IMG/VR virus record: IMGVR_UViG_3300037635_000457
Span: 1 to 33,692 of that record
From: a virus
Direction: 5' to 3' (one strand)
Length of the DNA stretch: 33,692 nt
Part shown: positions 5,722 through 13,603 of the stretch, piece by piece
Position numbering within the stretch: position 1 is the stretch's first letter
How the letters are laid out: every line of letters starts with the position of its first letter
Notes under the pieces: model-generated
Told to the model about the DNA's origin: nothing
The model's input: only the letters and a program-made list of their open reading frames with translations
Database searches by the model: none
Position numbers and translations under genes: made by a program

Positions 5722-7217
5722 TGGCAAAATATAAAGATAGAAAATACGTACCAAACAAATCAATACAAAAACAAGCCGAAGTTGGTGGTTTTAGAGATAT
5801 CGTTAGATCTGCCATCGGTCAAGGGCTTGCTTTTGGTTTTGGTGATGAGGTTGAAGCTTTTGCTAGATCTTTGGCTAGTAATAAAGATTATGAAACTTTG
5901 GTTAAAGAAATTAGACAAGACATACAAACATTTAAAGAAGAACAACCAGCGTTAGCTTACGGATCTGAAATAGGTGGAGGTCTTCTTACTGGCGGTCTTG
6001 GTTTGGCTAAAACAGCTTTAGGAACTGGTTTGAAAAGTGGCGGATTAGGATTAGCTTATGGTACAGGAATGGCTGAAGGGGATGTTGGAGAAAGATTGAA
6101 ATCTGGTGCTGCGAGTGGGGCTGCATCTGCTGTTTTAGGCCCAGTATCACAAAGGCTTTTACCCACTAAAACAAAAGAAGCCAAAGAGCTAATGGAAGAG
6201 GGAGTTGAATTGACTCCTGGTCAAGCTCTTGGAGGTCCAATGGCAAGAGGATTAAAAAGGTTTGAAGAAACAGCAACCTCAATACCTTTAATTGGAACAA
6301 GCGAAGCTCTAAAAAGAGGTAAAGAAACATTTAATATAGCTGTTTATAACAGAGCTTTAGATAAAATCGGTTATCAAATGCCTAAAGATATTAAACTAGA
6401 AGACGCTCCAAAGGTTTTTGAAAGAACTGTTTTAGATAGATTGGAGCAAACGGTTAGAGGATTAAAAGTAAAAAACATTGCTGAATTACAACAACAAATA
6501 AATGAGGTATTAATTGATAGCCCCTTAACAAAAGCAGAAATAAAAAACATAAATTCAAAATTAAATAAAATGATTTTTGAAAAAAGTAAAAGAAAAACTG
6601 TAACAGGTCAATTGACTGGTAAAGATTTACAAAAAGCAGATTCGTATTTAAACAGACAAGCAAGGAATTACTCAACAAGTACAGACGCAGCGCAAAGAGA
6701 AATGGGTGAGGTTTATTCTGATATATATAATGTTTTTTCAGATCATTTAATAAAAAATAATCCACAAACTGTTGTGAAAAATTACAAAAACGCTAAAAAT
6801 GCTTATGGTGATTTGCTAACAATATCAAAAGCAGCAACAGCATCCTCCAAAGACACTACATTTACGCCAACTCAGCTTTTAAGACAATCTAGGGCGTTAG
6901 ATCCAACATCGGCGAAAAGAAGAACCTTTACAGGGGAAGGAAGACTGCAAGATATAGGAAGGCTTGGAGAGGGTATAGTTGGCAGAGAAATACCAGAATC
7001 AGGAACAATACCAAGATTTATAACAGCAGGAGGAGCCTTGACTGGATTTTCCTCAATAGATCCTATAGCCGCTGCAATTTCTTCTATGACGTTAGGATCA
7101 TATCAAAGCCCATTATCACAAAGAGCGTTGCTAGAATCTTTAAATATTGGATCACAGGCAGCACAAAGAACCACGCCCTTAATAACCTCCGAGCTTTTAA
7201 GCCCCCCAATAGAATAA
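5721..7217 (+). CDS. large internal virion / DNA-injection protein
   Basis: The 498-aa protein begins with a basic stretch, then an Ala/Gly-rich hydrophobic region (about residues 88-140; GGGLLTGGLGLAKTAL and AASGAASAVLG) able to associate with membranes. The motif ELTPGQALGGPMARGLKRFE followed by ATSIPLIG is one I know from phage internal or injection proteins in many podoviruses. The rest is helical and Lys-rich. It is the last gene of the structural run. No lytic transglycosylase motif is seen, so this is not an obvious murein-cutting core protein. Confidence 0.7.
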   Translation: MAKYKDRKYVPNKSIQKQAEVGGFRDIVRSAIGQGLAFGFGDEVEAFARSLASNKDYETLVKEIRQDIQTFKEEQPALAYGSEIGGGLLTGGLGLAKTALGTGLKSGGLGLAYGTGMAEGDVGERLKSGAASGAASAVLGPVSQRLLPTKTKEAKELMEEGVELTPGQALGGPMARGLKRFEETATSIPLIGTSEALKRGKETFNIAVYNRALDKIGYQMPKDIKLEDAPKVFERTVLDRLEQTVRGLKVKNIAELQQQINEVLIDSPLTKAEIKNINSKLNKMIFEKSKRKTVTGQLTGKDLQKADSYLNRQARNYSTSTDAAQREMGEVYSDIYNVFSDHLIKNNPQTVVKNYKNAKNAYGDLLTISKAATASSKDTTFTPTQLLRQSRALDPTSAKRRTFTGEGRLQDIGRLGEGIVGREIPESGTIPRFITAGGALTGFSSIDPIAAAISSMTLGSYQSPLSQRALLESLNIGSQAAQRTTPLITSELLSPPIE

Positions 7218-10756: not shown

Positions 10757-11129
10757 CCTCAAGGAAGATAGGCCCACGCTTTGTGGATATTGTAAATCCC
10801 CAGCTGGGCCATTTTTGTACGAAGATAACAACAACTGGATTGGAGCATGCTGTATGGCTCATTTAGACAAAATTAAAGAAGGCAAACGCCTTCCAAATAA
10901 GGCGCAACTTAATGACATTGGTACCGAGTACGCTATAGCATCCACCAAAGACTTATATAAAAAATTATTAATTGCTAACAAAGAAAATCCATTACACAAA
11001 TGGAAACGTGAAGATAGAAAAAAAGTATTTGTTTCAATTATTAGAGAATATCTAAACTGGGCTAACGCCAGAGCCAAAGAAGATGATGAGAGAGCTTTAA
11101 ATGGATCTAAAAAAATACTGCAACGATAG
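10734..11129 (+). CDS. early protein with N-terminal cysteine knuckle
   Basis: A 131-aa basic protein overlapping the SSB-like gene by 23 bases and the primase-helicase by 29. Residues about 16-45 carry CGYC and a downstream ACC..H, compatible with a zinc site; the remainder is helical and lysine-rich (LHKWKREDRKKVFVSIIREY). The zinc site next to a primase gene invites comparison with a detached primase zinc-binding domain, but the spacing is not canonical. Function is unassigned. Confidence 0.6.
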   Translation: MTKTRRFSLKEDRPTLCGYCKSPAGPFLYEDNNNWIGACCMAHLDKIKEGKRLPNKAQLNDIGTEYAIASTKDLYKKLLIANKENPLHKWKREDRKKVFVSIIREYLNWANARAKEDDERALNGSKKILQR

Positions 11130-12930
11130 AAACATATTATTTGAAACAAAAAACAAAGAAACAAAAACAATAAATGATTTAATGAATGAGATGCAGGCGC
11201 AAGGCTTGCAGGTAAATCATTTACAAGCGTCTGGAGAAATAGTCAGAGTACCCACAGCGTTACCAGGAATGAAGCCAGACTTAGGTGGCGCTAGATCAGG
11301 CTGGTATGTAGTCAATACATTCAATGGCCATCACTTTGCCACTTATGGTAATTGGAAGACTGGTTTTGAGGGTAAGTGGAGTTCTGTTAGTTCCTCTACA
11401 TTAAGCCAGGTTGATAGAGAAGCCTTACAGAAAAAAATGGAGCAGGCTGCGAAAGAAGAGAGTATTAAGCGGAAGGCTAGGCAGGATGAGGTGGCTATAG
11501 AGATAAGGGAAAAATTTGATAAATGTCAAAATGTTATTGAACATGAATATCTCACGAATAAAAAGGTTAAAAACTATGGGTTGAAACAATCGTACGATAG
11601 CTTGATTGTTCCCGTGTATTCTACTACAGGTCAGATAAGATCTATACAGTATATCGATAAAAAAGGTAACAAAAAGTTTGCTTCATCGTCAGAAATTAAA
11701 GGTAATGTATTTTTAATTGGAACTACATTCAATGAACTAGCAAGTTGTGAAAAGTTGATAGTAGCTGAAGGTTACTCAACATCCGCAACAATATATGAAG
11801 CTACCCAAATTCCCGTGGCTTGCGTTTTTAGTGCCAATTTTACATTGGATGCAGTCTCTAAATTTCGCAGGTTAACGGGTGCTAGAATTATTTTGGCTTT
11901 GGACCATGATGACAATGGAGTGGGCGAAAAGAAAGCCCAGGAATGTGCAACTGCAATACCCAACGTGGCCGTGCGTCTGCCCAGCGAACGTGGTGATTAC
12001 AATGATTTATATCTAAGGCATGGTTTAGATAAAGTTAAAGCTGAACTCATGGACCACAAGTTAGGCATACAAAAATACGCGATCAGAAACCTAGTCGGTA
12101 AGCCAGAACCACAAAAATTTTTAGTGGATGGATTAATACCAATGGGTAAACCTGGACTGTTAGCAGCGTCAGGTGGCGTTGGAAAGTCTTTGAGTGTAAT
12201 TCAACTGGCATTAAGAATAGCTTGCGGTGGTGGCCGTTGGTGGGGTAAAGATGTTAAGGAACATGGAAACGTAATTTTGTTTTCAGCTGAAGATGATATA
12301 CCAGAGATCCACAGAAGATTAGATCTATTAGATCCAAACGGCAACAGGTTTAAAAGTGAATATGATGTTTATATTTTTCCAGTTCCAGAGCAAAAAGAAC
12401 CAATGATATTGTTAAAGGAAGAGGGCGTCACTCAGCTTGCACAAGATTTGGTTGAGGAGCTGCAAGTTATACCAGATTTAAAGTTGGTTTGTTTTGATCC
12501 GCTCCAGGCATTCACTACTGGTAACGTATCAAGCAGTAACGAGGCGGGACAGCTTTGGGGATCTTACTGTGCAAACATCAGCGCAAGGTTAAACTGTTGC
12601 ACGCTAACTATTCACCACTTAAATAAACAAGGCTTGACTGTGGACTCAGATGATTCAATGGTTCAGAGAACCAGCGTGCGCGGCGCATCGTCACTCGTGG
12701 ACTCAATAAGATTTGTTCTTGTAATGGCACTGGCAAGTGTTGAGGATTGTGAAAGGATTTGTGAAGAGCAACATGTGCCTTACGATAGAATGGCGGTGGT
12801 TAGAGGCGCGCTAGTAAAATCCAACAGCGGAGGCGTAGACTATTCCTCTAAAACATTATTCAGACGCAACGGTGTGTTAGAGCCATTAAATGAACCGCTA
12901 GATACCAGTAATTTATATGACAATTTTTAA
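11101..12930 (+). CDS. TOPRIM primase - RepA-type helicase fusion
   Basis: A 609-aa two-domain replication enzyme. Residues about 30-320 are primase-like, with the TOPRIM glutamate motif VAEGYSTSATI (Glu223) and ALDHDDNG (Asp268, Asp270, Asp271). Residues about 330-590 are a RecA-fold helicase: Walker A ASGGVGKS (356-363), FSAEDD after strand 2 and Walker B LVCFDPLQAF (Asp466). The helicase half resembles the hexameric RepA of IncQ plasmids (AAA_25 class) rather than DnaB or T7 gp4. No zinc-binding domain is visible at the N-terminus. It would unwind and prime the phage DNA and lies directly upstream of the candidate origin. Confidence 0.85.
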   Translation: MDLKKYCNDRNILFETKNKETKTINDLMNEMQAQGLQVNHLQASGEIVRVPTALPGMKPDLGGARSGWYVVNTFNGHHFATYGNWKTGFEGKWSSVSSSTLSQVDREALQKKMEQAAKEESIKRKARQDEVAIEIREKFDKCQNVIEHEYLTNKKVKNYGLKQSYDSLIVPVYSTTGQIRSIQYIDKKGNKKFASSSEIKGNVFLIGTTFNELASCEKLIVAEGYSTSATIYEATQIPVACVFSANFTLDAVSKFRRLTGARIILALDHDDNGVGEKKAQECATAIPNVAVRLPSERGDYNDLYLRHGLDKVKAELMDHKLGIQKYAIRNLVGKPEPQKFLVDGLIPMGKPGLLAASGGVGKSLSVIQLALRIACGGGRWWGKDVKEHGNVILFSAEDDIPEIHRRLDLLDPNGNRFKSEYDVYIFPVPEQKEPMILLKEEGVTQLAQDLVEELQVIPDLKLVCFDPLQAFTTGNVSSSNEAGQLWGSYCANISARLNCCTLTIHHLNKQGLTVDSDDSMVQRTSVRGASSLVDSIRFVLVMALASVEDCERICEEQHVPYDRMAVVRGALVKSNSGGVDYSSKTLFRRNGVLEPLNEPLDTSNLYDNF

Positions 12931-12938
12931 TAACCATA

Positions 12939-13019
12939 GGGAGTGTTAGGGACATACCTTGAGTAAGTTAGGGACATACCTTGAGTAAGTTAGGGACATA
13001 ACTCTAGTAGAACACTCCC
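12939..13019. repeat. three iteron-like direct repeats inside a 9-bp inverted repeat
   Basis: Three tandem 22-bp units begin at 12945, 12967 and 12989, each opening with GTTAGGGACATA. The first two are identical over all 22 bases and the third diverges in its second half. The array is bracketed by a perfect inverted repeat, GGGAGTGTT (12939-12947) and AACACTCCC (13011-13019). The 22-bp spacing places each unit about two helical turns apart, as in plasmid iterons bound by an initiator. The array sits between the primase-helicase and a small winged-helix gene, which supports an origin or autoregulatory role. Confidence 0.8.
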
Positions 13020-13027
13020 ATATATCC

Positions 13028-13044
13028 GTATAATAAAATTATAC
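13028..13044. repeat. 17-bp AT-rich palindrome next to the iterons
   Basis: GTATAAT-AAA-ATTATAC is a perfect 7-bp inverted repeat with a three-base centre, in an AT-rich stretch just downstream of the iterons. It could be a melting element of an origin, an operator, or the -10 region (TATAAT at 13029-13034) of the downstream gene. No good -35 is seen 17 bases upstream. Confidence 0.55.
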
Positions 13045-13049
13045 ATAGA

Positions 13050-13081
13050 GAAAGCGAACCCCTTGAGGGGGTTCAGCTTTC
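13050..13081 (+). other. long hairpin before the winged-helix gene
   Basis: GAAAGC plus GAACCCC (13050-13062) pairs with GGGGTTC (13068-13074) and GCTTTC (13076-13081), giving a 13-bp stem with one bulged A and a five-base loop. There is no following U-run, so an intrinsic terminator is unlikely. It ends 14 bases before the ATG at 13096, so it may be a replication structure (single-strand initiation or initiator site) or a translational control element. Confidence 0.6.
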
Positions 13082-13095
13082 AAGAGAGAGGAAAT

Positions 13096-13530
13096 ATGTA
13101 CAAAAGATTTAAACCTGTAAGCAAAGATCACTGGTGGATCACGGCACACACGAGCGAGCGGGAGCGCGCGGGAGTGTTTGTCCCGTTAGAGCTAGCAAGA
13201 CGCGAGGGTGATTTTGTAAGAGCCAGGGGAGTGGTTTGGGATTGGTACAGGCGTGAGTGCGGGAGAACGGATTTGTCAGTAAGTGCCAAATTGATTCTCT
13301 GGTCCGTGTGCGAGCGGTGGAGATATGAAACCTGGAGCAGCCATGATGCGATTAGTTATTATGCAAAGATGACTGGTGTTAATAGGAAAACATCTGGGCG
13401 AGCTATGACTGAGCTGATAGACAAAGAGGTGGTCTGGTGTGTGTTAGAGGGTGAGCAGAAGCGATTAAGGAAGTCGCAGCCTGGTGGTAAGAAGCATTTT
13501 TTATTAGTGGGGTTAGTGGATCTTCTGTAG
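13096..13530 (+). CDS. winged-helix replication-initiator-like protein
   Basis: I start at the ATG at 13096, which has AGAGAGGA upstream, rather than the in-frame TTG at 13063 that lies inside the hairpin loop. The 144-aa basic protein has a helix-turn-helix region (LSVSAKLILWSVCERW, then DAISYYAKMTGVNRKTSGRAMTELIDKEVVW, about residues 65-125) like phage/plasmid replication proteins. The base composition is unlike its neighbours: 38 of 60 bases at 13141-13200 are G or C, suggesting recent transfer. With iterons directly upstream and a RepA-like helicase before them, an initiator or autoregulator role is likely but inferred. Confidence 0.6.
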   Translation: MYKRFKPVSKDHWWITAHTSERERAGVFVPLELARREGDFVRARGVVWDWYRRECGRTDLSVSAKLILWSVCERWRYETWSSHDAISYYAKMTGVNRKTSGRAMTELIDKEVVWCVLEGEQKRLRKSQPGGKKHFLLVGLVDLL

Positions 13531-13603
13531 GTGAACGCACACGGAAGGTTGTTGAGGAGGGGGAGTATCCCGTGCGCGCTCGTGGATGGATTAATCTAAA
13601 AGA

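Follow-up and report, generated by a model that had tools for sequence, protein, structure and literature searches.

In the oriV of the IncQ plasmid RSF1010, an AT-rich stretch adjoins a set of about three iterons, each of roughly 20 bp. In phage lambda, the initiator O binds iterons, which sit within the O gene itself, and recruits the helicase. DnaA boxes are present in many iteron origins, not in all of them, and are thus not strictly defining. The 40-nt site of the RSF1010 primase comprises a hairpin flanked by a 6-nt 5' tail and by a 3' tail, and the enzyme makes contact with tail bases and, within the ssiA hairpin, with the first base pair (PMC4434180). Lambda infection can be blocked by extra copies of the origin (PMC4488673). 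In the PLE satellites of Vibrio cholerae, which carry RepA and an iteron origin, experiments showed that origin and initiator types covary and are exchanged as a specificity module (PMC8263062).

The window analysed here is the whole 33,692-nucleotide stretch of the viral record IMGVR_UViG_3300037635_000457. On its plus strand, a gap of 165 bases (12931-13095) lies exactly between the stop codon (12930) of a gene encoding a 609-aa TOPRIM primase/RepA-type (AAA_25) hexameric helicase (11101-12930) and the ATG (13096) of a gene encoding a 144-aa winged-helix (HTH_36-like) protein (13096-13530). The helicase matches Pfam AAA_25 (2.4e-32) and Toprim_3 (1.9e-7) and, by phmmer, RSF1010 RepA of the Protein Data Bank (1g8y, 5e-10). 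Domain matches and coordinates agree with an earlier note, made from the sequence alone, which had placed a candidate plasmid-type origin between these two genes. Genes upstream of the helicase gene encode a Sak4-like annealing protein and an exonuclease. None of the scanned proteins was recognised as a phage polymerase, and the remainder of the window is that of a tailed phage whose portal is of the SU10 type. HTH_36 is matched by all 13 aligned members of the winged-helix family (best 1.1e-5), the window's own protein alone being a weak match. The AF2 model of the latter, a weak one with a mean pLDDT of 60, shows helices 62-77, 82-93 and 97-109 plus a wing, which form a winged-helix core. 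The structure search gave no Foldseek match below 0.001 and only weak winged-helix matches. Relatives of this protein were absent from 50,697 phage and 72,556 plasmid records, and neither these collections nor Foldseek gave a relative of known function.

The repeat search located three 22-bp iterons with the core AGGGACATA at 12945-12966, 12967-12988 and 12989-13010, whose copies show 100, 100 and 82% identity. They are bracketed by a perfect 9-bp inverted repeat, with its left arm at 12939-12947 and its right arm at 13011-13019. Downstream, the octamer ATATATCC (13020-13027), which ends in ATATCC, directly precedes hairpin 1 (hp1), the 17-bp AT-rich palindrome GTATAATAAAATTATAC (13028-13044) with a 7-bp stem and a 3-nt loop. 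Hairpin 2 (hp2, 13050-13081) has the 13 pairs counted in the earlier note, arranged as 6 bp and 7 bp around one bulged base, A13075, and closed by the loop TTGAG (13063-13067). The last 14 bases (13082-13095) contain a purine-rich spacer and the presumed ribosome-binding site AAGAGAGAGGAAAT. A or T is found at 25 of the 30 bases of 13020-13049, so that an AT-rich stretch adjoins the iterons. All the elements described in the earlier note are confirmed. Direct repeats cover 56 nt of the gap (mean 0.2, maximum 22 in 500 shuffles of the gap) and are absent from every other window gap longer than 60 bp, and the fold energy is -55.1, lower than in any of 500 shuffles (mean -32.8, sd 3.8, minimum -45.2); by contrast, the 18 nt covered by 8-bp inverted repeats are unexceptional (mean 2.7, maximum 34, n = 500). 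No DnaA box (TTWTNCACA) occurs within the gap, the nearest being at 6773 and 25903, and ATATCCAT was rejected as such a box, its key positions differing from TTATCCACA. A reading of hp2 as an intrinsic terminator was also discarded, the stem lacking a following T-tract on both strands. An extended hp1 or three-way junction, formed by TCC and the ribosome-binding site, appears in many folds and is missing from others, and is not claimed.

The gap therefore shows several features by which iteron-type origins are recognised: regularly phased direct repeats of about 17-22 bp, an AT-rich stretch beside them and an adjacent DNA-binding gene matching the iteron type, whose product would be the initiator; DnaA boxes are the feature missing from it. 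The GC-skew check proposed in the earlier note is neutral. On either side of 13 kb the skew has positive values, and at third codon positions it is close to zero; the lack of a sign change near 13 kb, confounded by gene orientation, speaks neither for nor against an origin.

The locus resembles both the RSF1010 and the lambda origins and fails membership of either. It shares with RSF1010 oriV the RepA-type hexameric helicase, about three iterons of about 20 bp next to an AT-rich stretch, and a hairpin with a short unpaired tail on its 5' side. It differs in the primase, here a TOPRIM domain fused to the helicase and in RSF1010 the archaeo-eukaryotic RepB'; in the putative initiator, here of the HTH_36 type and not RepC (the 13 members gave HTH_36 and weaker HTH matches exclusively); and perhaps in the arrangement of the hairpins, two in tandem on one side where RSF1010 has one ssi (ssiA/ssiB) per strand. 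An invariant ATATCC ahead of a stem of free sequence is, by analogy, the trace to be expected from RSF1010-style recognition, although the primase here belongs to another family. With lambda the locus would share a phage initiator that binds iterons and recruits the helicase, but here the iterons lie upstream of the gene for the putative initiator and are accompanied by structured hairpins, and this protein has no Pfam O-family match. Hence the plasmid-type origin of the earlier note holds as a probable mode of working and not as a full match to any known plasmid or phage origin family.

Two cultured phages, PB15 of Alteromonas and CGphi29 of Salicola, encode distantly related TOPRIM/RepA helicases (28-29%), and in both of them repeats in both orientations lie directly behind the helicase gene. 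CGphi29 (L361:4933-5044) shows four copies of GGGGACAT, close to the iteron core found here, and PB15 (L360:4817-5020) shows five copies of GTGAACCA and one further copy within the helicase gene. Unlike the present locus, these phages gave no winged-helix relative in the phage collection, and no tandem-hairpin element was recognised in them by eye or by repeat search. Both arrays are candidate origins, and since even such distant helicase relatives carry repeats there, the position behind the TOPRIM/RepA helicase gene suggests itself as a general origin site.

A search of IMG/VR contigs identified 200 helicase relatives and 105 relatives of the winged-helix protein, 80 of each set being fetched. 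Absence of the repeats from relatives with the same replication genes, named beforehand as evidence against an origin, was not encountered: all 62 distinct gaps, mostly from marine viral contigs, show the same order of iterons, ATATCC, hp1, hp2 and winged-helix gene, and this layout also holds in two bacterial MAG contigs, whose winged-helix proteins are 55% identical. Conservation covers the palindrome and the hairpin as well as the iterons, whereas the outer 9-bp inverted repeat is only partly retained. The repeat period is 22 bp, or 21 bp in one clade, and stands out from all lags between 8 and 45; the iteron sequence itself varies between clades around a recurrent core resembling G(G/C)GACA(A/T)A (by eye). 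ATATCC is invariant across the aligned relatives and always lies 72-106 nt from the ATG (62 loci), with 12-42 mostly A/G-rich nucleotides between hp2 and the ATG. In 36 of the 62 loci other genes are located between the helicase gene and the array. The interval from the helicase stop codon to the iterons is an insertion hotspot (e.g. L022, L056, L064, L108, L144, L198 and L286), several of whose genes look by eye like DNA methyltransferases; insertions that separate the iterons from the winged-helix gene were never found. A covariance model located the hairpin pair at a single place in each of the 14 larger records, extra matches being the same place on the opposite strand. A degenerate pattern search gave mostly chance matches and no hairpin copy independent of the gene; its two real new loci, L198 and L219, also adjoin a winged-helix gene. 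No DNA similarity to the hairpins was found in phage records.

Both hairpins keep their pairing while their sequences change. The palindromic stem of hp1 has 7-9 bp, and the 16 distinct stems in relatives are all fully Watson-Crick. In nearly all of the 27 versions of hp2 one base bulges from the 3' arm, usually an A and in some cases a G; a small clade (L060, L198 and L219) shows rearranged internal loops. In a 31-row alignment, which includes one minus-strand match that slightly lowers the covariation values, 98.2% of cells are paired, falling to 43-49% when the partner is slid by one base, and two-sided changes affect 19 of 21 pairs, with 131 such cells against 29.6 in shuffles. MAFFT misplaced the hairpin arms and a covariance model was used instead; as its alignment leans toward structure, an independent test was made in which arms were swapped between loci, and pairing fell from 98-100% to 51-63% (51% for hp1). 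Three loci whose winged-helix proteins are more than 90% identical (L011, L012 and L013) show stem changes with an unchanged structure, so that shape, not sequence, is kept.

One-sided wobble-type changes occur in only one of 628 cells of hp1 and hp2, the loop-closing T-G of hp2 being counted as loop. A comparison stem just 3' of the winged-helix gene shows plus-strand A-C mismatches, equivalent to minus-strand G-U pairs, in 20 of 283 cells, and no plus-strand G-T (Fisher 8.5e-10, a p-value overstated by related rows that are not independent). Judged from these substitution patterns, the contrast favours a DNA role for hp1 and hp2 and an RNA role for the downstream minus-strand stem. The latter (13533-13581, minus strand) folds in this genome as an RNA with a 14-bp stem and a C-rich loop (z = -5.4); in relatives it has a 12-bp stem around a hairpin with a UCUCC loop and a C-tract. 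It has no Rfam match and is possibly an antisense or SD-binding RNA located where the leftward genes end. In one clade (L039, L067, L069, L076, L138, L140 and L198) a different, strongly conserved stretch beginning AGCTAGACATACCTGGAGAGGAGTGAAAGGGGGATCATGGTC directly follows the winged-helix gene, and its fold is no better than in shuffles.

The array varies with the winged-helix protein. Similarity between iteron arrays follows that between winged-helix proteins (partial Spearman 0.77, Mantel 0 of 300) far more closely than that between helicases (0.20), although the cassette boundaries coincide with gene ends and linkage alone thus explains part of this co-variation. The clearest case is a pair of relatives, L085 and L025, which share 95-100% identity as far as the helicase stop codon, fall to mostly about 45-70% across the array, hairpins and winged-helix gene (about 600 bp), and return to 100% over the roughly 150 bp that begin at the winged-helix stop codon; the one exception inside the divergent part is a near-identical stretch at the DNA-binding core of the winged-helix gene. 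On this comparison the pair is a natural replacement of the presumed origin-plus-initiator module, and related phages appear to swap the unit of array, hairpins and winged-helix gene for versions of other sequence. Joint change of the presumed origin and initiator type, seen here by sequence comparison, recalls the PLE satellites. In PLE, however, the origin and repA are separate stretches and the RepA_N domain alone swaps, whereas here the whole contiguous cassette is replaced, hairpins included, and the putative initiator is of a different family.

Taken as a whole, we consider it likely that 12931-13095 is the replication origin of this phage and forms, with the winged-helix gene, one origin-plus-initiator cassette. 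The main rival is an operator and leader of the winged-helix gene, in which the iterons would be sites for its product or another regulator and the hairpins a 5' untranslated RNA controlling translation or stability of the mRNA, with no origin at all. The element does always lie directly upstream of that gene, with hp2 close to the ATG, and regulator-operator pairs would presumably be exchanged jointly in the same way. A transcribed leader, however, agrees poorly with the near absence of G-U type pairs, present in 7% of cells of the neighbouring RNA stem; no Rfam match above the gathering score was found in the window (best 14.4 bits, cut-off 37), some loci lack the segments that pair with the ribosome-binding site, and three regular iterons with AT-rich hairpins near a primase-helicase gene exceed the needs of a repressor. 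We regard this explanation as unlikely, though it deserves to be taken seriously.

Much less probable is an origin made of iterons and initiator only, whose hairpins would be functionless by-products, namely quasi-palindromes that template switching had made perfect as the DNA was replicated. Such correction would leave near-perfect stems with scarcely any one-sided intermediates, as is seen, but it would erase the bulge on the 3' arm of hp2, which persists through complete stem changes, and the order and spacing of the hairpins and the invariant ATATCC survive these changes too. Direct repeats within an inverted repeat can also mark transposon ends, and the iterons could then be terminal repeats of a transposable element remnant. 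This reading was rejected and is hardly credible: the element occupies the same place in every relative, in single copy per genome, with no exact copy in a collection of genome contigs, and the outer repeat is only partly conserved.

If the gap is an origin, initiation may proceed as follows. The winged-helix protein would bind the 21-22-bp iterons, spaced by about two helical turns, and this binding would open the adjoining AT-rich stretch formed by ATATATCC and hp1. Both hairpins would then form in the opened strand and be recognised through their shape, contacts being likely at the invariant ATATCC tail and at the bulge of hp2; by analogy with the ssi sites of RSF1010, the hairpins are probably single-strand structures used at initiation. 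The neighbouring TOPRIM/RepA-type primase-helicase would be loaded there and lay the first primer, to be extended by a host polymerase, since no phage polymerase is among the scanned proteins. Through the iterons, the winged-helix protein is probably a repressor of its own gene as well.

More tentatively, and with somewhat less than even confidence, these loci may represent a distinct class of phage origin, in which a winged-helix initiator and iterons are combined with a shape-recognised pair of single-stranded DNA hairpins at which a TOPRIM/RepA-type primase-helicase primes. Exchange of the whole cassette between close phages might then create replicon types that avoid cross-recognition, for example by origin-targeting nucleases or competing phages.

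An origin-like cassette thus recurs in a broad range of uncultured phages, most of them marine, together with a putative initiator family that has no named function. If the proposed reading is true, it would give these phages a defined, clonable origin and provide a rare case of shape-only recognition of DNA hairpins legible from covariation. It would also represent a natural, repeated replacement of origins in free phages, like the experimental case of the PLE satellites, and would allow one to ask what selects for origin switching.
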